This document shows, piece by piece, positions 38,056-48,557 of a stretch of DNA of 64,000 nt. The notes beneath the pieces were generated by a model. That model saw nothing but the letters and a program-made list of their open reading frames with translations, made no database searches and was not told the origin of the DNA. The DNA is from Streptomyces abyssalis (GTDB lineage: Bacteria; Actinomycetota; Actinomycetes; Streptomycetales; Streptomycetaceae): contig NZ_LJGT01000037.1 of NCBI RefSeq assembly GCF_001751365.1, forward strand, positions 558,001 through 622,000, given 5' to 3'. The position numbers and the translations under genes are program-made. Positions within the stretch are counted from its first letter, which is position 1. Each line of letters starts with the position of its first letter.

Positions 38056-39189
38056 ATGCTGACCGCTGTCGTGCACGGCGCGGGCGACCTGCGGGTCGAG
38101 CAGCGCCCCGACCCCGTCCCGCGGCAGGGCGAGGTGCTCGTCGCGATGACGCACGGCGGCATCTGCGGCTCGGACCTGCACTACTACCGCGAGGGCGCCG
38201 TGGGCTCCTTCGCCGTGCGCGAGCCGCTCGCCCTCGGCCACGAAGTCGTCGGCAGGGTCGCCGAGGACCCGGCGGGCCGGCTGCGCCCGGGAACGCCCGT
38301 GGCCGTACATCCCGGGACCTCTTGCGGGACGTGCCAGGAGTGCGCCGAAGGACACCCCCAAGTCTGCGCCGGAGCAGGCTACTTGGGCTCCGCTGCCACG
38401 TTCCCGCACACACAGGGCGGCTTCACCGGGCGGCTGGCCGTCCCCGCGGACCGCCTGCATGCCGTACCCGACGGGCTTCCGCTCTCCAGGGCCGTACTGG
38501 CGGAACCGCTCGCCGTCGCGCTCCACGCCCTGCGCCGTGCGGGCGGTGTGGCAGGGGCGCGGGTCCTCGTCAACGGTGCCGGACCGATCGGCGCCCTGAC
38601 CGCGGGAGCGGCAAGGTCATGGGGTGCTGTGGAGGTGTGGGCGAGCGACATCCGTGACGCGCAGCTGCGCATCGCCGAGCGCACCGGGGCGGACACCACG
38701 GTCCGGGCCGGCCGGGAGGCGCTTCCCGGCGAGTACTTCGACGTGGTCGTCGAGGCGTCCGGCGCGCCGGGGGCGCCCGCCGCGGTGATGGGCGCCGTAC
38801 GCAGACGCGGAGTGATCGTCCAGCTGGGCTCGGCCCCCGCGGAGCCGGTGCCGGTGCCCTTCGGGCCCGTCGTGGCGAAGGAGATCGAACTGCGCGGCAC
38901 CTTCCGCTTCGAGGGCGGGCTCGGGACCGCACTCGCCATGCTCGCCGCCTCCGACCGCCTGGAGGCCGTCGTCACCCGCACCTTCCCGCTGCGTGACGCG
39001 GTCGAGGCGATGGAGACCGCCGCCGATCCGGCAGTCCCCGGGAAGGTGGTCCTCCTGCTCGGCAGCGAGGACACGGCAGCCGCTCCGGCCTCTTCGACGG
39101 CGTCGGCAACGACGGCCACCCTGACCGGCAGACCAACCACATCGGACACGGACCGCACCACCCGCACCACACGGAGAGCATCCCCATGA
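38056..39189 (+). CDS. Zinc-dependent L-idonate/sorbitol-type dehydrogenase
   Basis: A 377-residue MDR-superfamily dehydrogenase. Catalytic zinc ligands are Cys37 and His61-Glu62 (GHEVVG); the structural zinc site is Cys90, Cys93, Cys96 and Cys104; the NAD-binding stretch is NGAGPIGALTAG. HYYREGAVGSF is typical of L-idonate 5-dehydrogenase and sorbitol dehydrogenase. The conserved fold ends near residue 345; the last 32 residues are Thr/Ser/Ala/Arg-rich and unlike the family, possibly from a shifted stop. The gene overlaps the next by four bases. GGGAGG lies six bases before the ATG. A 173-nt gap separates it from the mannitol dehydrogenase gene. Confidence 0.87.
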   Translation: MLTAVVHGAGDLRVEQRPDPVPRQGEVLVAMTHGGICGSDLHYYREGAVGSFAVREPLALGHEVVGRVAEDPAGRLRPGTPVAVHPGTSCGTCQECAEGHPQVCAGAGYLGSAATFPHTQGGFTGRLAVPADRLHAVPDGLPLSRAVLAEPLAVALHALRRAGGVAGARVLVNGAGPIGALTAGAARSWGAVEVWASDIRDAQLRIAERTGADTTVRAGREALPGEYFDVVVEASGAPGAPAAVMGAVRRRGVIVQLGSAPAEPVPVPFGPVVAKEIELRGTFRFEGGLGTALAMLAASDRLEAVVTRTFPLRDAVEAMETAADPAVPGKVVLLLGSEDTAAAPASSTASATTATLTGRPTTSDTDRTTRTTRRASP

Positions 39190-40439
39190 CCCGACTCGAA
39201 CGGCGACTTCCGCGCCCGAAGGACCTGGCGCCCCTGCTGAAGCTGAAGACCCGGCCGAGGAGCGCCGTCGAGCGCAGGCTGGCCGGGGCCCACACGATCT
39301 GGGACCTGCGGCGCATCGCCCGGCGCCGCACACCCGCGGGCCCGTTCGACTACACCGACGGTGCCGCGGACGGCGAGGTCGGCGTACGCCGGGCCCGGGA
39401 GGCGTTCGAGGACCTGGAGTTCCGGCCGGGCGTCCTGCGCAACGTCGAGACGGCCGAGACCTCCACCACCGTGCTCGGCGGGCACTCCGCGCTGCCCTTC
39501 GGCCTGGCTCCCACCGGCTTCACGCGCATGATGCACTCGGCGGGCGAGCGCGCCGTCGTCGCCGCTGCCGGGCGGGCGGGCATCCCGTACGCGCTGTCCA
39601 CCGTCGGCACGACTTCGATCGAACAGGTCGCCGAGACGGCCCCGTCCGCGCGCAAGTGGTTCCAGCTCTACCTGTGGAGGGACCGCGACCTCTCGCGCGA
39701 GCTGGTGGCGAACGCCAAGGCCGCCGGATACGAGGCCCTCATCGTCACCGTCGACGTCCCTGTGAACGGAAACCGCCTGCGCGACCTGCGCAACGGCATG
39801 ACCATCCCGCCCCAGCTGACGCTCAGGACGTTCCTCGACGCCTCCTACCGCTGGGAGTGGTGGCTGAACTTCCTGACCACGGAGCCGTACACGTTCGCCT
39901 TCGACAAGGACGGCCACGGCGCCCTCACCGAACTCGTCAGCAAGCTCTACGACCCGACCGTCACCTTCGACGACCTGGAGTGGATACGGGAGCAGTGGGA
40001 CGGCCCGATCCTGGTGAAGGGCATCCAGACGGTCCACGACGCCGAGGCCGTCATGGCGCACGGCGCGGACGGCGTCATCGTCTCCAACCACGGCGGCCGC
40101 CAGCTGGACAGGGCACCCGTACCGCTGCACCTGCTGCCGGACATCGCCGCGGCGGTGGGGGACCGGGGCACCGTAATGCTGGACACGGGGATCATGAACG
40201 GTGGCGACATCGTGGCCGCGCTGGCCCTCGGCGCGGACTTCGCCCTCGTCGGACGCGCCTATCTCTACGGCCTGATGGCAGGCGGCGAGGCGGGGGTGGC
40301 CCGTGCGATCTCCATCCTGGCCGCCGAGGCCGAGCGCACCATGAAGCTGCTCGGCGTGACCAGCGTCGCCGAACTCCGCCCGGACCACGTGCGGTTGATG
40401 ACCCGGCGCACCCCGGTAGTGCCGGAAGGGAAGGACTGA
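39186..40439 (+). CDS. FMN-dependent alpha-hydroxy-acid oxidase/dehydrogenase
   Basis: A 417-residue (S)-2-hydroxy-acid oxidising enzyme related to L-lactate dehydrogenase LldD and glycolate oxidase. FMN and substrate motifs are visible: PFGLAPTGFTRMMH, LSTVGTTSIE, KWFQLYLW, IVTVDVPVNGNR, ILVKGIQ and the catalytic His in VSNHGGRQLD. An N-terminal extension of about 50 basic residues is present. It would oxidise lactate or a sugar-derived hydroxy acid to the keto acid. It is translationally coupled to the idonate-type dehydrogenase, which puts it in the polyol/acid catabolic operon. It is not the divergent MftD type. Confidence 0.88.
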   Translation: MTRLERRLPRPKDLAPLLKLKTRPRSAVERRLAGAHTIWDLRRIARRRTPAGPFDYTDGAADGEVGVRRAREAFEDLEFRPGVLRNVETAETSTTVLGGHSALPFGLAPTGFTRMMHSAGERAVVAAAGRAGIPYALSTVGTTSIEQVAETAPSARKWFQLYLWRDRDLSRELVANAKAAGYEALIVTVDVPVNGNRLRDLRNGMTIPPQLTLRTFLDASYRWEWWLNFLTTEPYTFAFDKDGHGALTELVSKLYDPTVTFDDLEWIREQWDGPILVKGIQTVHDAEAVMAHGADGVIVSNHGGRQLDRAPVPLHLLPDIAAAVGDRGTVMLDTGIMNGGDIVAALALGADFALVGRAYLYGLMAGGEAGVARAISILAAEAERTMKLLGVTSVAELRPDHVRLMTRRTPVVPEGKD

Positions 40440-40675: not shown

Positions 40676-41407
40676 ATGGACACCCCCGCACCCGCCGTCC
40701 GCGCACTGCCGCTGGAGACCACCGGCGACGCGGCTGAGCGCAAGGCCACGGTGGCTCTCCTGCCCGTCGGGAGCTACGAACAGCACGGCCCGTACCTGCC
40801 GCTGTCCACGGACACCCTCATCGCCTGCGCCGTCGCAGAACGGGTCGCCGCCTCGTACCCGGTGCAGCCGCTGCCGCCGCTGACCGTCTCCTGCTCGCAG
40901 GAGCACGCGCGGTGGCCCGGCACGGTCAGCATCACCGCGGGCACACTCGGCGCCGTCGTACGGGACGTCGCGCACTCGCTCCGGCGCTCGGGAGTGCCCG
41001 GGCTGGTGCTGGTCAACGGCCACGGCGGCAACTACGTACTGCGCAACGTCGTGCAGGAGGCCACCGCGGACGGACACCGCATGGCGCTCTTCCCCGTCGC
41101 CGCGGACTGGGAGGACGCCGCCGCCAAGGCCGGTGTGGAGACCCCCGCGCGCAGCGACATGCACGCCGGCGAACTGGAGACGTCGATCCTTCTGCACGCA
41201 AGGCCTGACTGCGTACGGGAGGGGTACGAGACCACGGACTGGCTCAGCGACGACCGCAGGCACCTGCACACCCTGGGGCTCGGCCCGTACACCGAGTCCG
41301 GCGTCGTCGGCCGGCCCTCCCTGGCGACCGCGCGCAAGGGCGACGACGTGCTCACCGCGCTGACCGGTGCCTTCGCCGGCCATCTGGAAGCTCTGGAGTC
41401 GTTGTGA
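40676..41407 (+). CDS. Creatininase-family amidohydrolase (ArfB-like formamide hydrolase candidate)
   Basis: A 243-residue metal-dependent hydrolase. The creatininase metal ligands are all present: Glu35 and His37 in SYEQHGPYLPLSTDT, Asp46, His116 in VNGHGGN and Glu166 in DMHAGELETS. The family includes creatininase, MftE and the archaeal ArfB, which removes the formyl group from FAPy, an opened GTP ring product. It shares four bases with the RibD-C-type reductase gene and lies in a cluster with a GTP cyclohydrolase II of altered active site, so a FAPy deformylase role is the best inference. AGGAGGAG lies rather far, 11 bases, from the ATG. Confidence 0.85.
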   Translation: MDTPAPAVRALPLETTGDAAERKATVALLPVGSYEQHGPYLPLSTDTLIACAVAERVAASYPVQPLPPLTVSCSQEHARWPGTVSITAGTLGAVVRDVAHSLRRSGVPGLVLVNGHGGNYVLRNVVQEATADGHRMALFPVAADWEDAAAKAGVETPARSDMHAGELETSILLHARPDCVREGYETTDWLSDDRRHLHTLGLGPYTESGVVGRPSLATARKGDDVLTALTGAFAGHLEALESL

Positions 41408-42366
41408 CGGGGCAGGGCAGGCCCGCACCGGCAGCGCCGGAAGCACACATACCCGCCCCGCCCGGCGGCGGCGCCGCAGAAGAAGGCCTCGGCACCGAGC
41501 CGGCGTGGGAGCGGCTGCTCGGAGTGCGTACGGCCGAAACGGCAGCCGAGGCCGGACTGCTGCGGGGCGAGGACGGCGTGTGGCGCTGGGCGGTGCCCGC
41601 CTCGTCCGGGGCGCAGACCCTCGCCGCGCTCTACACCCCCCTCTGCCTGGGCGGGCCGGGCTACGCCTTCGCGCAGCTCGGCCAGAGCATCGACGGCTTC
41701 ATCGCCACCAGGACCGGCCACTCCAACTACGTCACGGGGGAAGAGGACCGCCTCCATCTGCACCGGCTGCGTGCGCTGTCGGACGCCGTCCTCGTCGGGG
41801 CGGGCACCACCATCGCCGACGATCCGCAGCTGACGGTCCGCGCGTGCGCCGGCACCAATCCCGTACGTGTCGTGCTCGATCCGCGTGGCCGCGCCGGCCG
41901 GGAGACCCCCGGGGCACGGGTCTTCACCGACGGAAAGGCGCCGACACTGCGCCTCGTCGGCACGGGCCACGCCCCCACGGCGGGTCGTGCGGGCCGGACG
42001 GGCGCGGCCGGCGAAGGCGGCAGTGCTGCGGCCGGCCAGGGCGACGAGGAGGTCGTCGAACTCCCGCGCGGGGAGGCGGGGTTCGAACCGAGGCTAGTAC
42101 TGGAGACCCTCGCCCGCCGCGGCCTTGGCCGGGTGCTTGTCGAGGGCGGCGGCGCGACGGTGTCCGGGTTCCTCCGCGCGGAAGTGCTGCACCGGCTCTA
42201 CGTCACGGTCGCGCCGGTTCTCCTCGGAGACGGCGTACCGGGGCTCCGCTTCCCAGGGCCCGTACGGATGGGGGAGGCCCTGCGGCCCCGGACCCGTGCC
42301 TTCGGCCTCGGCGCGGACATGCTCTTCGAACTCGACCTCCTGGACCTCCTCGACGGCACGGCGTGA
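41404..42366 (+). CDS. RibD C-terminal-type pyrimidine reductase
   Basis: A 320-residue NADPH-dependent reductase of the dihydrofolate-reductase-like RibD_C fold. Core signatures are GQSIDGFIAT, the long DAVLVGAGTTIADDPQLTVR segment and VLVEGGGATVSGFL. About 75 unconserved residues precede them and a Gly/Ala-rich insertion sits around residues 185-215. RibD-C enzymes reduce the ribosyl side chain of diaminopyrimidine phosphates to ribityl. There is no deaminase domain. It starts with GTG overlapping the creatininase stop. Its 3' end overlaps the convergent membrane-protein frame by 273 bases. Confidence 0.87.
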   Translation: MTGQGRPAPAAPEAHIPAPPGGGAAEEGLGTEPAWERLLGVRTAETAAEAGLLRGEDGVWRWAVPASSGAQTLAALYTPLCLGGPGYAFAQLGQSIDGFIATRTGHSNYVTGEEDRLHLHRLRALSDAVLVGAGTTIADDPQLTVRACAGTNPVRVVLDPRGRAGRETPGARVFTDGKAPTLRLVGTGHAPTAGRAGRTGAAGEGGSAAAGQGDEEVVELPRGEAGFEPRLVLETLARRGLGRVLVEGGGATVSGFLRAEVLHRLYVTVAPVLLGDGVPGLRFPGPVRMGEALRPRTRAFGLGADMLFELDLLDLLDGTA

Positions 42367-43293
42367 ACGCCTCGCCGCGAGGAGCCGGCAGACCAGCACA
42401 CCCGCTCCCGGAAGGCTGGAGAGCAGCGCAAGCGCCCCGTAGACGACCGCGGACGCCAGACCTTGGGACGCGCCCAGGCCCGCGGCGCCGAACGCCAGCG
42501 CGCACATGCCTTCGCGGGGGCCCCAGCCTCCGACGTTGACGGGCAGCACCATCACCAGCAGCGCCAGCAGGAGCGGAGGCACCAGTGCGGCCAGCGGCGC
42601 GGAGGAACCGGCCACGCGCGCCGCGGCGAGAAAGAGCGCGAGATGTCCCGAGAGGGCCAGCACGGACAGCGCCAGCACGCCGGGCCAGCTGTCGCGGGCG
42701 AAGAGCGAGGCCCGCGCGTCGATGAGGAAGACCCCCAGGTCACGCCGCCACTTCGCCGAGCGTCCACCCCGTCCCGCCAGCACCACGCCGGCGACGGCTG
42801 CCAGCCCGCACAGCACCAGACCGGTCATGGCGAACGGCCCTTCGAGAGCGTTCAGCACCGGCAGCGGCGGAGGCGCCACGACCAGCACCACGACGCCCGC
42901 GGCCACGATGACGGCCTGGCCCGCGGTGCGCTCCAGAATCACCGCCCGCACGCCGCGGGCGACGTCGCCCGCTTCGCGGCCGTTGCGGACGGCACGGTGC
43001 ACGTCGCCCAGCACGCCCGAGGGCAGCGTCGCGTTCAGGAACAGCGCCTGGTAGTAGTCGGCGACGGCCGTACGCAGCGGCAGAGCGATCCCGAGCCTGC
43101 CCGCCACGAGACGCCAGCGCCACGCGCTGAAGACGGTGGCCGGGACGCTGAAGGCGAAGGTGATCAGGACGGCCTGTGCGTCGATGCGGCCGAGGGCCCC
43201 CAGCAGGGCGGAGGTTCCCAGCTTGTGGACCACCACGCCGAGGATGACGAGTGCTATGGGTACGCGCAGCCTGCGCCAGAGCGGGCCCTTCAT
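42094..43293 (-). CDS. Lysylphosphatidylglycerol synthase TM region-like membrane protein (UPF0104)
   Basis: A 399-residue frame. Residues 1-305 are a polytopic membrane domain of the LPG_synthase_TM/AglD class: GVVVHKLGTSALL, TVFSAWRWRLVAGRLG, YYQALFLNATLPSGVLGDVHRA and LPVNVGGWGPREGMCALAFG. These proteins often accompany lipid-linked glycosylation. Residues 310-399 are polar, lack family similarity and lie entirely antisense to the end of the reductase gene. The ancestral stop has probably been lost, or the tail is translated read-through. The gene begins four bases inside the methyltransferase gene, so the two are coupled. Confidence 0.8.
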   Translation of the reverse strand: MKGPLWRRLRVPIALVILGVVVHKLGTSALLGALGRIDAQAVLITFAFSVPATVFSAWRWRLVAGRLGIALPLRTAVADYYQALFLNATLPSGVLGDVHRAVRNGREAGDVARGVRAVILERTAGQAVIVAAGVVVLVVAPPPLPVLNALEGPFAMTGLVLCGLAAVAGVVLAGRGGRSAKWRRDLGVFLIDARASLFARDSWPGVLALSVLALSGHLALFLAAARVAGSSAPLAALVPPLLLALLVMVLPVNVGGWGPREGMCALAFGAAGLGASQGLASAVVYGALALLSSLPGAGVLVCRLLAARRSRRAVEEVQEVEFEEHVRAEAEGTGPGPQGLPHPYGPWEAEPRYAVSEENRRDRDVEPVQHFRAEEPGHRRAAALDKHPAKAAAGEGLQY

Positions 43294-44153
43294 GCGGTGG
43301 CAGTTCCGGCCGTGCCTCCGGGCAGCGCCAGCAGGTCGCGGTGGTGAACCACGGCCCGCAGCGTGCCCGCCTCGCAGGAGTCGAGTCTGCGCCGCAGATA
43401 GTCCTCGCTCGCCGCCTCCAGCGACGGCTCCTGTGCGCACGCCGCCGCCACCCATCCCAGCAGCCACTGCGCGGTCAGCCCGCTCTCCTGCGGACCGAGC
43501 TGCCACGGGCTGGAACGCGTGAGCACGGAGAAGCCGTTGCGCTCGAAGGCGGCCGTCGCCGCCTCGGCGGCGTCCGGTCCGAGCAGCCTGCGGCCCGCGT
43601 CGGCGCGGCGCTGATGAGCGTCGAAGGCCGCGGCGAACTCCTCGTCCAGCGGATCGGACGGTTCGAGCTCGACGCGCCCCTCGACGGACAGCGCCAGCAG
43701 CACGGCGCAGCCCGCCGCGGCGCAGCTCGCCGCGAGCGACTCCACCTCGTCGGCGGTCAGCAGGTCGAGCAGCGCGGAGGCGGTGACCAGGGACGTGCCC
43801 GCCAGGTCGTCGCCCGTCAGGCGTGTGATGTCCCGCTGCTGCGGCACCACTTCGAGAGGGCTGCCGTCCCCGGCCTCCCGCGGCATCCGCGCTGCGATGT
43901 TCTCCAGCAGCGCCGGATCGCGGTCGTACATGAACCAGCGTTGGGGACCGCCCAGGCGGGCGGAGAGCCACCGCCCCATCGAGCCCGTGCCGCACCCCAG
44001 ATCGTGGACGGTCAGCCGGTCGCCCGACGCGGGGGTGTCCGCGAGGAAGGCGTTCAGCGGACCGATGAGCTCTTCCGCGCGGGCGCGGGCGTCCGCGTCC
44101 TCGCGCAGGGCGAGCCACTCGGGGGCGTAGCGGGGCGAGCCGACGGTGTTCAA
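43290..44153 (-). CDS. Class I SAM-dependent methyltransferase
   Basis: A 287-residue methyltransferase with SAM motif I VHDLGCGTGSMGRWLSARL near residue 50, FMYDRDPALLEN for the ribose-binding acid and SLVTASALLDLLTADEV for motif IV. The C-terminal half (DPLDEEFAAAFDAHQRRAD onwards) is typical of a group found beside PTPS homologues in actinomycetes. It would methylate an intermediate of the pyrimidine/pterin-like product. The start is TTG at 44153, six bases after GGAG and 11 bases after the glycosyltransferase stop. Confidence 0.83.
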   Translation of the reverse strand: MNTVGSPRYAPEWLALREDADARARAEELIGPLNAFLADTPASGDRLTVHDLGCGTGSMGRWLSARLGGPQRWFMYDRDPALLENIAARMPREAGDGSPLEVVPQQRDITRLTGDDLAGTSLVTASALLDLLTADEVESLAASCAAAGCAVLLALSVEGRVELEPSDPLDEEFAAAFDAHQRRADAGRRLLGPDAAEAATAAFERNGFSVLTRSSPWQLGPQESGLTAQWLLGWVAAACAQEPSLEAASEDYLRRRLDSCEAGTLRAVVHHRDLLALPGGTAGTATA

Positions 44154-44164
44154 GCGCTACTCCG

Positions 44165-45352
44165 TTATTCGAGCCGGAGATGCTCCAGAACCCCGGCCAG
44201 CTGACGAGAGCTTTCGGGCCAACCCTGCAGCTTGGCGCGCCGCCCGCGCGCGGATGTTGTCAGATGCGAACGAATTCCTGGATCTGTGAGCCAAGTGTGC
44301 AGCGCAGCGGTTAGAGCTGCGGAATCGCCGGGTGGCACCAGAATGCCGGGAATGCTCCCGTCCGGCGCCGTGCCCACGGTGTACGGGACGGCGCCGGCCT
44401 CCGTGGCGAGCACGGGGATGCCCCGGGAGAGCGCCTCGGTCAGCACCATGCCGTACGTCTCCGTGTGCGAAGCCAGCACGAGAAGATCCGCGGCGTCGTA
44501 TGCGGCTGCAAGGTCCTCGCCCGAGCGCGCGCCCGTCAGCCGCACCCGCTCGCCCAGGCCGTGCTCGCCGACGCTGCGGCGCAGTCGCTCCACGAATCCG
44601 GGAGCCCGGTCCAGGGGACCCGTCAGCTCGCACGTCCACGGCGGGCCGCCGGAATCCCCTCCGCGCGGACCCTGTCCCTCAGCGAAGACCGGCCGGACAG
44701 AGCCCAGGCCGGCGAGCGCTTCGACGAGCAGATCCTGCCCCTTGCGCGGTGTGAGCGCCGCGACGCACAGCAGCCGCGAGGCGCCGTCGGTCCCCCGGGC
44801 GAGAGGCGCGGGGTCGGTGCCGGGCAGGACGGAGTGGACGCGGGCCGCCTCCAGCCCGTGCCGCGCCGTCACTTCCCGCGCCGCCCACTCGCTGGTCACG
44901 ACGACGGCGGCGGCCGCGTGCAGCGTCCGCCGCTCCAGCCGCTCCAGCTCCCGGGCCTCGGCGGGACCCAGGCCCGTCTCGTCCGCCAGCGGCAGATGCA
45001 CCAGCACCGCCAGACGCAGCCGCCGGGCCTGCGGCACGACGACGTCGGGGACGCCGCACGCCACGAGCCCGTCGACGAGCACGACCGCCCCGTCGGGCAA
45101 CTCGCGGAGCACACCTGCCAGTTCGGCGCGCGCCGCCGCGGAAGGGCGCGGCCAGGTCCCGGCGACCGCCCTCGTGCGCACCGGCGTCCCGGCCGCGCTC
45201 ATCTCGCGGCACACGCGGCGGTCGTAGCTGTTGCCGCCGCTGACGGAGCGGGGATCGTCGACGTCCCCGGGCATCACCACATGGACGGGCCGCGCGGATG
45301 GCACGTCCGGCTCGTCCGCACCGCTCACAGCCGTCGCTCGTAGCTGGCCCAT
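44165..45352 (-). CDS. Glycosyltransferase family 4 protein
   Basis: A 395-residue GT-B glycosyltransferase. The donor-binding C-terminal half has [40 protein letters not shown] and the GT4 signature [21 protein letters not shown]. The acceptor-binding N-terminal half opens with [20 protein letters not shown]. It would transfer a sugar from a nucleotide donor onto the cluster's product or a lipid carrier. The first 28 bases overlap the end of the PTPS-like gene, so the two are tightly coupled. Confidence 0.86.
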
Positions 45353-45723
45353 GCGACGTGCGACTCGTGCAGCGTCACCGAGATCGCCTCCAGCCCGCGG
45401 GCCCCCTCACCCAGGGCGCCGGCGTGGACCCGCTCCGCGAGGCGGTCGGCGACGACCCTGGCCAGCATCTCCGTCGAGGTGTTGATCCCGGCGAAGGCGG
45501 GTTCGTCGTCCAGATTGCGGTAGTTGAGGTCGCCGAGAACACCGCTGAGTTCCTGCGTCGCGGCACCGATGTCCACGACGATGCCGTCGGCGTCGAGTTC
45601 GCCGCGCCGGAAGGTGGCATCCACGACGAACGTCGCACCGTGCAGTCGCTGTGCCGGGCCGAAGACGTCACCGCGGAAGCTGTGGGCGATCATCATGTGG
45701 TCACGAACGGTGATGCTGTACAT
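45325..45723 (-). CDS. 6-pyruvoyl-tetrahydropterin synthase (PTPS/QueD) homologue with altered active site
   Basis: A 132-residue T-fold protein. PTPS landmarks retained are His14 and His28 (two of three zinc ligands), the NTSTEMLA stretch and the pterin-anchoring Glu120 in LHES. Aligned by eye with E. coli QueD, the third zinc His is Ala30, the catalytic Cys is Ala24, and the catalytic Asp-His pair is Asn67-Tyr68. It therefore cannot use the standard QueD/PTPS mechanism. S. coelicolor SCO6650 is the known homologue in a similar cluster. It may bind a pterin or pyrimidine and catalyse a different step. It is the second gene of the minus-strand group. Confidence 0.85.
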
Positions 45724-45804
45724 CGGCTCACTTTCCTGTACGTGCCTGTACGCGTCCTGTGTGCTGTACGGGCGGTCTGCGTCGCTGCGCGGGCTCGGGG
45801 GTGC

Positions 45805-46863
45805 TCAGCCGGCGGCTGTGCTCCCGTCGTTGCCGACGTTCCCCTCGTTCGCGTCGTCGTTGTCGTTCTCTTCGGCCTTGTCGTAGGTGACGAGGTGGCA
45901 CAGAGCGGGCAGTTCCCCGCCCGCGATGCGGGGCATCACCGCCGGCAGGTCGCCGAAGGCGGACTCCCCGGTGATCAGGGTCTCCATCGCCGGGTCGGCG
46001 AGGAGATCCAGCGCGAGGGCCATGCGGTCGGCGAAGCCGCGGCGCGCGCGGCGCGACGGCGGCAGCGCGCCGACCTGGCTGCTGCGCACCGCCAGCCGCC
46101 GGGAGTGGAAGGACTCTCCCAGCGGGATGCTGACCTTCCGGTCGCCGTACCAGCTGAGTTCGATGACCTCACCGTCCGGTGCGAGCAGCTCCAGCGACCT
46201 GGCGAGGCCCTCCTGAGACGCGCTGGCGTGCACGACGATGTCGCACTCCCCGGTGGCGTCGGCGGGCAGGGCGAAGGGGACACCGAGCGCCGCGGCGACG
46301 GCGGCCCGGCCGGGATCGGCGTCGACCAACTGCACGCGTGCGGCGGGGAAGCGGGAGAGCACCGAGGCCACGCAGGCCCCGACCATCCCGGCACCGACGA
46401 CGGCGATCCGGTCGCCCAGCGCCGGAGCCGCGTCCCACACCGCGTTCACCGCGGTCTCCACCGTGCCGGCGAGCACGGCGCGCCTCGCAGGTACCGCCTC
46501 CGGTACGGGCGTCACCGCGTCGGCAGGCACCACGTACCGGGTCTGGTGGGGGTGGAGGCAGAAGACGGTGCGGCCCATGAGGGCCGCGTCCACTCCCTCG
46601 CCGCTCTCTTCGACCACGCCCACGCTGAGGTAGCCGTACTTGACCGGCCCCGGGAAATCGCCCTCCTGAAAGGGAGCCCGCATCACGTCGTGCTGGCTCC
46701 GCGGCACCCGGCCGTCGAAGACGAGGGTCTCCGTTCCGCGGCTGACGCCCGAATAGAGCGCACGGACGAGGACTTCGCCGGGCCCCGGGGAGCCCAGGGC
46801 GACGGTGCGGATCTCGCCGGAACCCGGGGAGCGCAGCCAGTAGGCATGAGCGGTGCGCTCCAT
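45805..46863 (-). CDS. MDR-family oxidoreductase without zinc sites
   Basis: A 352-residue medium-chain dehydrogenase/reductase. The N-terminal part has YSGVSRGTETLVFDG and KYGYLSVGVVEE where zinc enzymes carry their Cys and GHE ligands, so no catalytic or structural zinc site is present. The nucleotide domain has AVVGAGMVGACVASVL. This BchC-like subgroup often accompanies PTPS homologues in Streptomyces. It would oxidise or reduce an alcohol or ketone on the cluster's product. The last 20 residues are Asp/Asn/Glu-rich. It is the first gene of the minus-strand group, divergent from the phosphatidyltransferase gene. Confidence 0.83.
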   Translation of the reverse strand: MERTAHAYWLRSPGSGEIRTVALGSPGPGEVLVRALYSGVSRGTETLVFDGRVPRSQHDVMRAPFQEGDFPGPVKYGYLSVGVVEESGEGVDAALMGRTVFCLHPHQTRYVVPADAVTPVPEAVPARRAVLAGTVETAVNAVWDAAPALGDRIAVVGAGMVGACVASVLSRFPAARVQLVDADPGRAAVAAALGVPFALPADATGECDIVVHASASQEGLARSLELLAPDGEVIELSWYGDRKVSIPLGESFHSRRLAVRSSQVGALPPSRRARRGFADRMALALDLLADPAMETLITGESAFGDLPAVMPRIAGGELPALCHLVTYDKAEENDNDDANEGNVGNDGSTAAG

Positions 46864-46900
46864 CTATGTGTCCTCCGTGTATGACGACAACTGCTAAGCC

Positions 46901-46928
46901 TTCACATCCCAGCGGCCACTCGTACCAT
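46901..46928 (+). promoter_or_regulatory. Promoter of the phosphatidyltransferase gene
   Basis: TTCACA (46901-46906), a 16-base spacer and TACCAT (46923-46928) form a plausible vegetative promoter in the 107-nt divergent gap. AGGAGG at 46961-46966 is the ribosome site of the downstream gene. Confidence 0.5.
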
Positions 46929-46970
46929 AATCAGCCCCCCTCGACTCCGCCATATGCACCAGGAGGCGCG

Positions 46971-47762
46971 ATGAGCAGCCAGCACAAGCAGGACAGGCGG
47001 GCCACGGACCAGCTGAAATTGCAGACAGGACTCGGGCTGGCCGGGCAACTGCTGCTGCTGGGAGTCCTTTGGGGCGTCACCGGTCTGGGCCCCGTGGGAT
47101 GGGTGGTGGGGGCGGCCTGCGGCGTGACCGTCGGTGCCCTGCTGCTGCGATCGGGAGCCCCCGCGCTCGGACCGGCGGATCTGGTGACCCTGAGCAGAGC
47201 GGGCCTCGCCGGGGGCACGGCCGCACTCGTCGCGGACCAGGGCACGGACGCGTCCCTCGTGGTGGTGGCGGTCGTGGCGACCGTGGCGCTGGTGCTCGAC
47301 GCGGTGGACGGGCTGGTGGCCCGGCGCACCGGGACGGCCTCGCCGCTCGGCGCACGCTTCGACATGGAGGTCGACGCCTTCCTGATACTTGTGCTCAGCG
47401 CCTTCGTCGGCCTGTTCGTGGGCATGTGGGTGCTGGCCATCGGGGCCATCCGGTACGCCTTCGTCGCCGGCCAGTGGATGCTGCCGTGGCTGCGCGGGCC
47501 GCTTCCCCCGAGCCGCGCCCGTAAGACGGTCGCGGCGGTCCAGGGCATCGCGCTCGTGGTGGCCGGATCCGGACTGGTGCCGGGGCCTGTCGCGGTATTC
47601 GTGGCAGGCGGCGCCCTGTCGGCTCTCGTGTGGTCCTTCGGGCGGGACATCTCCTGGCTGTGGCACGTGCGCACGCTTCCCGTCATCGCGGAGGGTGCCC
47701 TCGACTTCGCCGTGGTGCCGCGGAGCGGAAGCTCACCCGCGACCGGCGGGCAGAGGGGCTGA
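46971..47762 (+). CDS. CDP-alcohol phosphatidyltransferase family protein
   Basis: A 263-residue integral membrane enzyme. The family signature D-G-x2-A-R-x8-G-x3-D-x3-D is visible as DAVDGLVARRTGTASPLGAR followed by FDMEVDAF, with all the acidic metal ligands. Six or more hydrophobic helices surround it. These enzymes move a phospho-alcohol group from a CDP-activated donor onto an alcohol acceptor such as glycerol phosphate, inositol or serine. In this cluster it could join a CDP-activated unit to the GTP-derived product, or make a lipid carrier. The ATG has AGGAGG four bases upstream. The cyclohydrolase gene follows. Confidence 0.85.
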   Translation: MSSQHKQDRRATDQLKLQTGLGLAGQLLLLGVLWGVTGLGPVGWVVGAACGVTVGALLLRSGAPALGPADLVTLSRAGLAGGTAALVADQGTDASLVVVAVVATVALVLDAVDGLVARRTGTASPLGARFDMEVDAFLILVLSAFVGLFVGMWVLAIGAIRYAFVAGQWMLPWLRGPLPPSRARKTVAAVQGIALVVAGSGLVPGPVAVFVAGGALSALVWSFGRDISWLWHVRTLPVIAEGALDFAVVPRSGSSPATGGQRG

Positions 47763-47891
47763 GCGGGCGCCATGAGAGACGAAATGCCCGGGAAACCGCA
47801 CATTCCCCTCCGCGCCGTGCAATCAATTCCACGTACACGCAACCCGGTTGAGGATTCTCCCAAAAAACCAGATGCGGAGTTGGCCGACGGG

Positions 47892-47897
47892 TATGCT
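47892..47897 (+). promoter_or_regulatory. -10 element consistent with a leaderless cyclohydrolase mRNA
   Basis: TATGCT ends seven bases before the A of the cyclohydrolase ATG, exactly the spacing that places +1 on the start codon. No ribosome site precedes that ATG. I see no convincing -35. Confidence 0.4.
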
Positions 47898-47903
47898 CCC
47901 GGC

Positions 47904-48557
47904 ATGGCGTACCAGGAACTCTCTGTGAACAGCTCCCCGCGGCAAACCGCCGCTGTCGAGAGGGTGGTGGAGGTCCGGCTTCCCACGGTCCATGGAGAAT
48001 TCCGTGCCATCGGATACATGGACCGCCGCACCAACCAAGAGCAAGTCGCGCTCGTGCACGGCGACATTGCCGCACACGGCGCACTGACGCGTGTGCATTC
48101 GGAGTGCCTTACAGGTGAGGTCTTCGGGTCCACTCACTGCGAGTGCGGAGACCAGCTCGGCACGGCGATGCGGATGATGGTCACGGACGGTTCCGGCATC
48201 CTCGTCTACATACAGGGTCACGAAGGCCGCGGAATCGGTCTGCTCGCGAAGCTGAAGGCGCTGCAACTGCAGCAGGAAGGCCTCGACACGGTGGAGGCCA
48301 ATCTGGCACTCGGCCTTCCCGTCGATGCCCGCGAGTACACGGTGGCCGTTGAAATACTCAATGATCTGGGTGTGGAGTCCGTGCGGCTCCTCTCGAACAA
48401 TCCCAGAAAGCGGGACGCACTGGAGGCGAACGGCATAACAATCGCCGAGCGCATTCCTCTGCTCATCCCGCCGAACAAGGAGAATCACCAGTATCTCCTG
48501 GCGAAGCGGAAGCGGCTCGACCACAGCCTTCCGCATCTCGACGGCCTGCTCGGCTGA
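47904..48557 (+). CDS. ribA: GTP cyclohydrolase II homologue with Leu at switch position 120 (SCO6655-like)
   Basis: A 217-residue RibA-type zinc enzyme. Zinc ligands Cys68, Cys79 and Cys81 lie in HSECLTGEVFGSTHCECGDQ; HEGRGIGLLAK and SNNPRKRDAL line the GTP pocket. Canonical enzymes have a Tyr (E. coli Tyr105) in the helix that here reads AKLKALQLQ; the aligned residue is Leu120. In S. coelicolor SCO6655 the same numbered residue is Met120, and that protein stops at the formylated product FAPy instead of losing formate. A FAPy-forming activity is therefore predicted. The matching numbering supports the ATG at 47904. It lies 141 nt after the phosphatidyltransferase gene. Confidence 0.88.
   Translation: MAYQELSVNSSPRQTAAVERVVEVRLPTVHGEFRAIGYMDRRTNQEQVALVHGDIAAHGALTRVHSECLTGEVFGSTHCECGDQLGTAMRMMVTDGSGILVYIQGHEGRGIGLLAKLKALQLQQEGLDTVEANLALGLPVDAREYTVAVEILNDLGVESVRLLSNNPRKRDALEANGITIAERIPLLIPPNKENHQYLLAKRKRLDHSLPHLDGLLG

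Follow-up and report, generated by a model that had tools for sequence, protein, structure and literature searches.

The window analyzed here is a 64,000-nucleotide stretch of the Streptomyces abyssalis genome (assembly GCF_001751365.1, contig NZ_LJGT01000037.1, positions 558,001 to 622,000), in which nine genes located within positions 40676..48557 appear to form a dedicated biosynthetic cluster branching off early riboflavin chemistry. Nine adjacent genes of the families described below had been called in a first-pass annotation of the sequence, and all were confirmed by open reading frames and Pfam profiles. The cluster is split across both strands, and is therefore not a single operon. At one end, on the forward strand, lie a creatininase-family hydrolase (CRE, 40676..41407; PF02633, 208.6 bits), predicted to be a formamidase acting on the pyrimidine FAPy, and a RibD_C-type reductase (RED, 41404..42366; PF01872, 119.2 bits), predicted to convert a ribosyl into a ribityl side chain. 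The middle is occupied, on the reverse strand, by a BchC-like medium-chain dehydrogenase without zinc motifs and predicted to act on polyols (MDR, 45805..46863), a PTPS-like T-fold protein orthologous to SCO6650 of Streptomyces coelicolor (PTP, 45325..45723; PF01242, 86.3 bits), a family 4 glycosyltransferase (GT4, 44165..45352; PF00534, 85.9 bits), a class I S-adenosylmethionine-dependent methyltransferase with a marginal profile match (MET, 43290..44153; PF13649, 28.3 bits for a cut-off of 27), and a flippase-like membrane protein of the LPG_synthase_TM type (LPG, 42094..43293; PF03706, 90.2 bits over residues 11-294, the final ~100 residues falling beyond the match). The other end, again on the forward strand, consists of a CDP-alcohol phosphatidyltransferase (CDP, 46968..47762; PF01066, CDP-OH_P_transf, 42.2 bits) and a GTP cyclohydrolase II with a Leu at its switch position (GCH, 47772..48557; PF00925, 215.4 bits). 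For CDP, a start at 46968, with AGGAGG ahead of it, is more likely than one at 46866. AGGAGG also precedes the ATG of CRE, whose motifs EQHG, TD, NGHGGN and DMHAGE are kept in its aligned relatives. RED carries an N-terminal extension without a family match, and its nearest solved structure by sequence is 6p8c (74.1 bits), named 2,5-diamino-6-ribosylamino-4(3H)-pyrimidinone 5'-phosphate reductase. The LPG frame and RED overlap tail to tail by 273 bases, and a similar overlap occurs in L004, the locus of the window's nearest relative.

The cluster is strongly conserved. Scanning genome contigs with PTP yielded at least 458 confirmed loci, the best 80 of which we analyzed as relatives; they include Streptomyces, Micromonospora, Pseudonocardia, Amycolatopsis, Actinomadura, Catellatospora, Phytohabitans and others. 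Across these 80, PTP is 77-88% identical to that of the window, and the gene order MDR-PTP-GT4-MET-LPG is the same in nearly all. Counting the window (81 loci), MDR and PTP are present in 81, GT4 in 80, and MET and LPG in 78 each. Among the 60 loci with full flanks (59 relatives and the window), MDR and PTP are found in 60, GT4 and LPG in 59, MET and CDP in 58, GCH in 56, CRE in 46 and RED in 20. A search of the outer flanks of the 81 loci for a conserved tenth gene revealed no other family in more than 28 of them. Such an arrangement is not due to chance, as MDR, PTP, GT4, MET and LPG occur in 78-81 of the 81 loci and flanking families in at most 28. A beta-lactamase-family gene adjoining GCH in S. 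tendae belongs to a family present in 28 loci, and was not counted as a cluster member. In a draw of 346 genomes across the phylum, 81 had a PTP match, 15 of which reach at least 75% identity. In f19, a distant actinobacterial family represented by 17 matching genomes, RED, MDR, PTP and GT4 stand together in all nine loci fetched.

GCH belongs to the GTP cyclohydrolase II family, scoring 214.3 bits with the ribA model (above the cut-off of 205.85) and possessing the three zinc-binding Cys at E. coli positions 54, 65 and 67. The column of E. coli Tyr105 is the position at which the product of these enzymes is switched. In the work of Spoonamore in 2006, S. coelicolor SCO6655 is said to stop at FAPy, with a Met standing where the enzymes forming APy (2,5-diamino-6-ribosylaminopyrimidinone 5'-phosphate) carry a Tyr. 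The GCHs of the Streptomyces loci that we read (S. coelicolor not among them) have Met as well. The window differs from these loci in having a Leu instead, and in having kept RED, whereas most Streptomyces loci are without it. It thus lacks the Tyr of the APy-forming, riboflavin-type enzymes. Over the 70 cluster GCHs compared (69 loci and the window), the switch column holds Met in 43, His in 8, Tyr in 18, and Leu in the window alone.

This residue goes with the presence or absence of CRE: the creatininase lies in the same locus as all 52 non-Tyr GCHs, and with none of the 18 Tyr ones. A looser profile search of the 18 Tyr loci, four of which (L065, L074, L079, L039) have less than 7 kb of sequence on one side, did not recover a CRE even at an E-value of 1. 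The two genes are separated by 500 bases or less in 47 of the 52 non-Tyr loci; in the window (6.4 kb), L004 and three Actinomadura loci, they bound the cluster on either side, 4.8-6.4 kb from each other. The same pattern extends to further cluster loci, with CRE in 11/11 Met cases (two of them already counted) and absent from 6/6 Tyr cases (one on a short contig; L115 spans 3.8 kb). Four Tyr GCHs found with a PTPS but no MDR (L125, L129, L132, L133) were excluded from the count, and none has a CRE match. The second GTP cyclohydrolase II of the window's genome has the Tyr, and its 3.5 kb locus is free of CRE. Genome-wide, among 17 Streptomyces genomes, a close CRE (at least 61% identity) and a GCH orthologue (at least 56%) are found in 12/12 with PTP and 0/5 without it. 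Non-Tyr GCHs would be paired with CRE because a cyclohydrolase stopping at the formamide needs a deformylase, a division of labor. The logic of FAPy formation followed by deformylation, already suggested in the first-pass annotation, is therefore strengthened by a residue and a gene that co-occur without exception among cluster GCHs. One genome (G319) has another creatininase at C1:2329322-2330023, outside the cluster and 55% identical to CRE.

The placement of the reductase is supported by two Pseudonocardia loci in which GCH and RED are fused (Pfam), which puts the reduction next to the ring opening, and RED is present in 18/18 Tyr-type loci. Together, the residue-CRE rule and the fusions support a predicted sequence of GTP to FAPy, deformylation and side-chain reduction. 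The three steps initially proposed for the locus are not a fixed set: RED is often missing, as detailed below, and GCH or CRE are missing elsewhere. RED occurs without GCH in L019, L020, L055 and L062 (with full flanks in L020 only). Genomes carry 3-19 RibD_C paralogues each (21 genomes), too many to tell whether a substitute for RED exists. Supply of the precursor could be exchangeable, since early intermediates exist in every cell that makes riboflavin.

Several observations weigh against this interpretation. The non-Tyr GCHs form one clade (support 96/93, in a tree using 48 of 90 rows), so that the link between CRE and GCH could reflect descent alone. On a tree of MDR+PTP, which used 65 of 94 rows, both traits need three changes each, and independent pairs number three on the best tree and one on well-supported branches, with which significance is impossible to reach. 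RED is missing within the fetched flanks of 42 of the 52 non-Tyr, CRE-type loci. CRE is found without a nearby GCH at L059, and likewise at L078, where the contig ends 1.5 kb from PTP; GCH, CRE and RED are all absent at L033 and L066. The best curated score of CRE is with the mycofactocin peptidase MftE rather than with ArfB, and its structure model is of moderate quality (mean pLDDT 77.6), fitting creatininase folds without telling the substrate. FolE is present, so that a pterin route loses its simplest motive. Finally, enzyme activities, product and lipid linkage all stand as predictions for the window's genome.

How do these first steps compare with characterized pathways? The archaeal ArfA/ArfB/ArfC route offers the same order of reactions (FAPy, deformylation, side-chain reduction), but starts from a GTP cyclohydrolase III where the window has a GTP cyclohydrolase II. 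The idea that the creatininase is itself an ArfB homologue was not borne out, as CRE scores 32.4 bits against a cut-off of 180 with the ArfB model (NCBIfam NF033501). A better precedent is BrbF, a creatininase-like protein that serves riboflavin synthesis in S. meliloti (Sinorhizobium) and Brucella and deformylates FAPy in vitro (PMC9478397). BrbF and CRE, set side by side here by description and not by sequence, have in common the creatininase-like family and the same predicted reaction; they differ in that CRE goes with a GTP cyclohydrolase II paralogue and an orphan core, the rib genes lying elsewhere. Indeed, a RibD-like gene, the second GTP cyclohydrolase II (a 604-residue frame) and lumazine synthase are found at 828-832 kb of the same contig (C38), ~220 kb away. 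Given these genes, the cluster is unlikely to serve ordinary riboflavin synthesis (riboflavin synthase was not searched). Among the nine genes themselves, Pfam detected neither a DHBP synthase nor a deaminase nor a lumazine synthase domain, and a role as a canonical riboflavin operon, which the first-pass annotation had named as fatal to its proposal, is not what the gene content indicates. The present analysis argues against the listing of SCO6655 under riboflavin metabolism that appears in an S. coelicolor model (PMC2853524).

The remaining cluster genes point to what may happen further downstream. MDR and PTP form an invariant pair. PTP matches 3d7j, the structure of SCO6650, with 234 bits, which confirms the suspected kinship with the S. 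coelicolor SCO6650-SCO6655 cluster, the likeness consisting in the orthology of PTP and SCO6650. 3d7j is reported to be zinc-free and inactive. PTP departs from both the three-His zinc site and the Cys-Asp-His triad of PTPS and QueD enzymes: in the motif alignment HGH has become HGA, the Cys an Ala, and Asp-His has become Asn-Tyr. The f19 homologues retain the three His, and the Cys and Asp-His are gone there too, which argues against PTPS activity in both groups. The Glu known as the pterin anchor is kept in PTP. Although PTP matches the PTPS family (QueD/PTPS, COG0720), it reaches only 33.4 bits with the QueD model (cut-off 89.25). The function of the PTPS-V subfamily is called unclear in one study (PMC5041015).

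MDR matches ADH_zinc_N below the cut-off (24.5 versus 31.8 bits), and its assignment goes beyond this weak Pfam match thanks to sub-cut-off, BchC-like NCBIfam matches and a structure model. It is not a BchC proper (TIGR01202, 55.4 bits for a cut-off of 291). SRGTE and GYL stand in place of the catalytic-zinc motifs of zinc-dependent relatives, in line with the zinc-lacking dehydrogenase initially described. Among many other members of this superfamily, the MDR model (pLDDT 87.3) resembles polyol and secondary-alcohol dehydrogenases, those for threonine, butanediol, xylitol, sorbitol and idonate included; identity does not exceed 20% in the matches displayed. Sequence comparison with solved structures gave weak matches only. 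In CDP, the signature D-x2-DG-x2-AR...G-x3-D-x3-D of CDP-alcohol phosphatidyltransferases is kept across 82 rows, placing it in that family; matches to solved structures that could indicate the acceptor are weak and limited to the motif region. Glycosylation, methylation and lipid linkage are inferred from the gene families of the cluster. In addition, an inositol-monophosphatase-like gene lies beside the cluster in five loci (Pfam on one), suggesting that a phosphate may be removed.

Based on these elements, we consider it fairly probable that the cluster diverts early riboflavin chemistry into a dedicated branch, whose end product would be a glycosylated and methylated pyrimidine or pterin, probably bound to the membrane. 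GCH, without the switch Tyr, would open GTP and halt at FAPy, and CRE would strip the formyl group to give APy, a step proposed on the grounds of the residue-gene rule, with BrbF as the precedent. RED would then turn the ribosyl into a ribityl side chain, as suggested by its family and the GCH-RED fusions. Loci with a Tyr-type GCH would bypass the deformylation, and those without GCH may use the riboflavin intermediates of the cell itself. MDR and PTP would oxidize the polyol side chain and alter its shape; in this, PTP would bind a pterin or pyrimidine as a T-fold protein instead of working as a classical zinc PTPS. GT4 would add a sugar and MET a methyl group, while CDP and LPG may join the product to a membrane lipid, or carry it with a lipid. 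The synteny, the residue rule, the fusions and the loss of PTPS catalytic residues are established at the level of sequence, and what they delineate is a widespread orphan pathway of undecided chemistry.

Two other readings are unlikely but deserve consideration. In the first, the product would be a dihydropterin made by a redox detour: RED would reduce C1' and MDR re-oxidize C2', together doing what GTP cyclohydrolase I achieves by its Amadori step, before the T-fold protein closes the ring and GT4, CDP and LPG decorate the product. The resemblance of the MDR model to polyol dehydrogenases, among others, is compatible with this, as are the f19 loci, where RED and MDR accompany PTP and GT4 in 9/9 cases and FolB (dihydroneopterin aldolase) lies ~2.2 kb from PTP in the same nine genomes, as the sole FolB copy in eight. 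Yet this FolB proximity was seen in f19 only, RED is missing in many loci, and GTP cyclohydrolase I is encoded in 22/22 genomes tested, 17 of them f19, leaving no pterin gap to fill. The latter result rules out a folate rescue in which RED, MDR and PTP would replace GTP cyclohydrolase I in f19; a pterin variant could still exist as a dedicated route, though it has lost its strongest motive. In three genomes (G026 C15, G194 C73, G224 C230) the GTP cyclohydrolase I match falls into two to three pieces within one frame of 552-864 residues, resembling an intein insertion. In the second reading, held equally doubtful, the cluster would make a diffusible natural product resembling a pyrimidine nucleoside, with CDP and LPG serving export or self-protection and not attachment to a lipid. 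Four shorter clusters without CDP and LPG matches (L114, L135, L140, L141) and a patchy distribution in the window's genus (12/17 genomes) go in this direction, but of the 60 full-flank loci 58 have CDP and 59 have LPG along with the core, and the PTP identity among the 80 best loci was judged unusual for antibiotic clusters.

Somewhat less probable still is a widespread membrane-anchored pterin glycoside made without GTP cyclohydrolase I, RED and MDR replacing the Amadori step and a zinc-free T-fold closing the ring. It is improbable that the cluster forms an additional, regulated branch for riboflavin or for flavin secretion, feeding APy into ordinary flavin synthesis. The first three enzymes do correspond to archaeal-type riboflavin synthesis, and a separate flavin-secretion branch has been proposed in S. 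meliloti (PMC9478397); however, the DHBP synthase, deaminase and lumazine synthase domains are lacking among the nine genes, with rib genes elsewhere, and the conserved MDR, PTP, GT4, CDP and LPG would be left unexplained. Lastly, a decayed mycofactocin locus, with CRE as the MftE peptidase next to a glycosyltransferase and the FMN-dependent lactate-dehydrogenase-like gene directly upstream of CRE (39186..40439) as MftD, can be dismissed: CRE and this gene reach 136 and 231 bits with MftE (TIGR03964) and MftD, below the cut-offs of 172 and 470.85, no MftC scored above cut-off in the genome, and the MftD-like gene has a homologue in L004 only, among the loci searched.

The cluster itself was already known through SCO6650 and SCO6655, and so was a creatininase-family FAPy formamidase in Sinorhizobium and Brucella (PMC9478397). 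Our literature search, outside the coverage of which most subscription papers fall, did not find a paper naming the product; neither did the papers searched contain the residue-gene rule, the fusions, the MDR-PTP core or the cross-phylum spread. The residue-gene rule could serve as a sequence test for pairs of a FAPy-forming GTP cyclohydrolase II and a deformylase. It also bears on the bacteria with BrbF, in which the FAPy-forming partner is reported as undiscovered (PMC9478397).

The spread across phyla involves plasmids, as 26 plasmid records hold a PTP relative, and MDR adjoins PTP in seven of the eight that we fetched. Their hosts are proteobacteria (Thiodictyon, Methylosinus, Peteryoungia, Agrobacterium and a Rhodobacteraceae strain) as well as Microbacterium and Arthrobacter. 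Six of these seven loci have RED, the Arthrobacter one showing MDR, PTP and GT4 only. The high identity of PTP among the 80 best loci, together with the partial presence in proteobacteria, suggests a generally useful product, perhaps a cofactor or a surface lipid, that is absent from metabolic maps. Three proteobacterial loci (L134, L136, L137) carry a cytochrome b near RED (of the b561 family by Pfam on one), and, close to the core, a gene annotated as a sulfatase or resembling one (in L136, Pfam found no family for the sulfatase-annotated protein); these genes perhaps contribute a membrane step. A plasmid of Streptomyces anthocyanicus (L138) encodes a lone SCO6650-type PTPS (69%) without MDR, with cupin and MBL-fold genes nearby.

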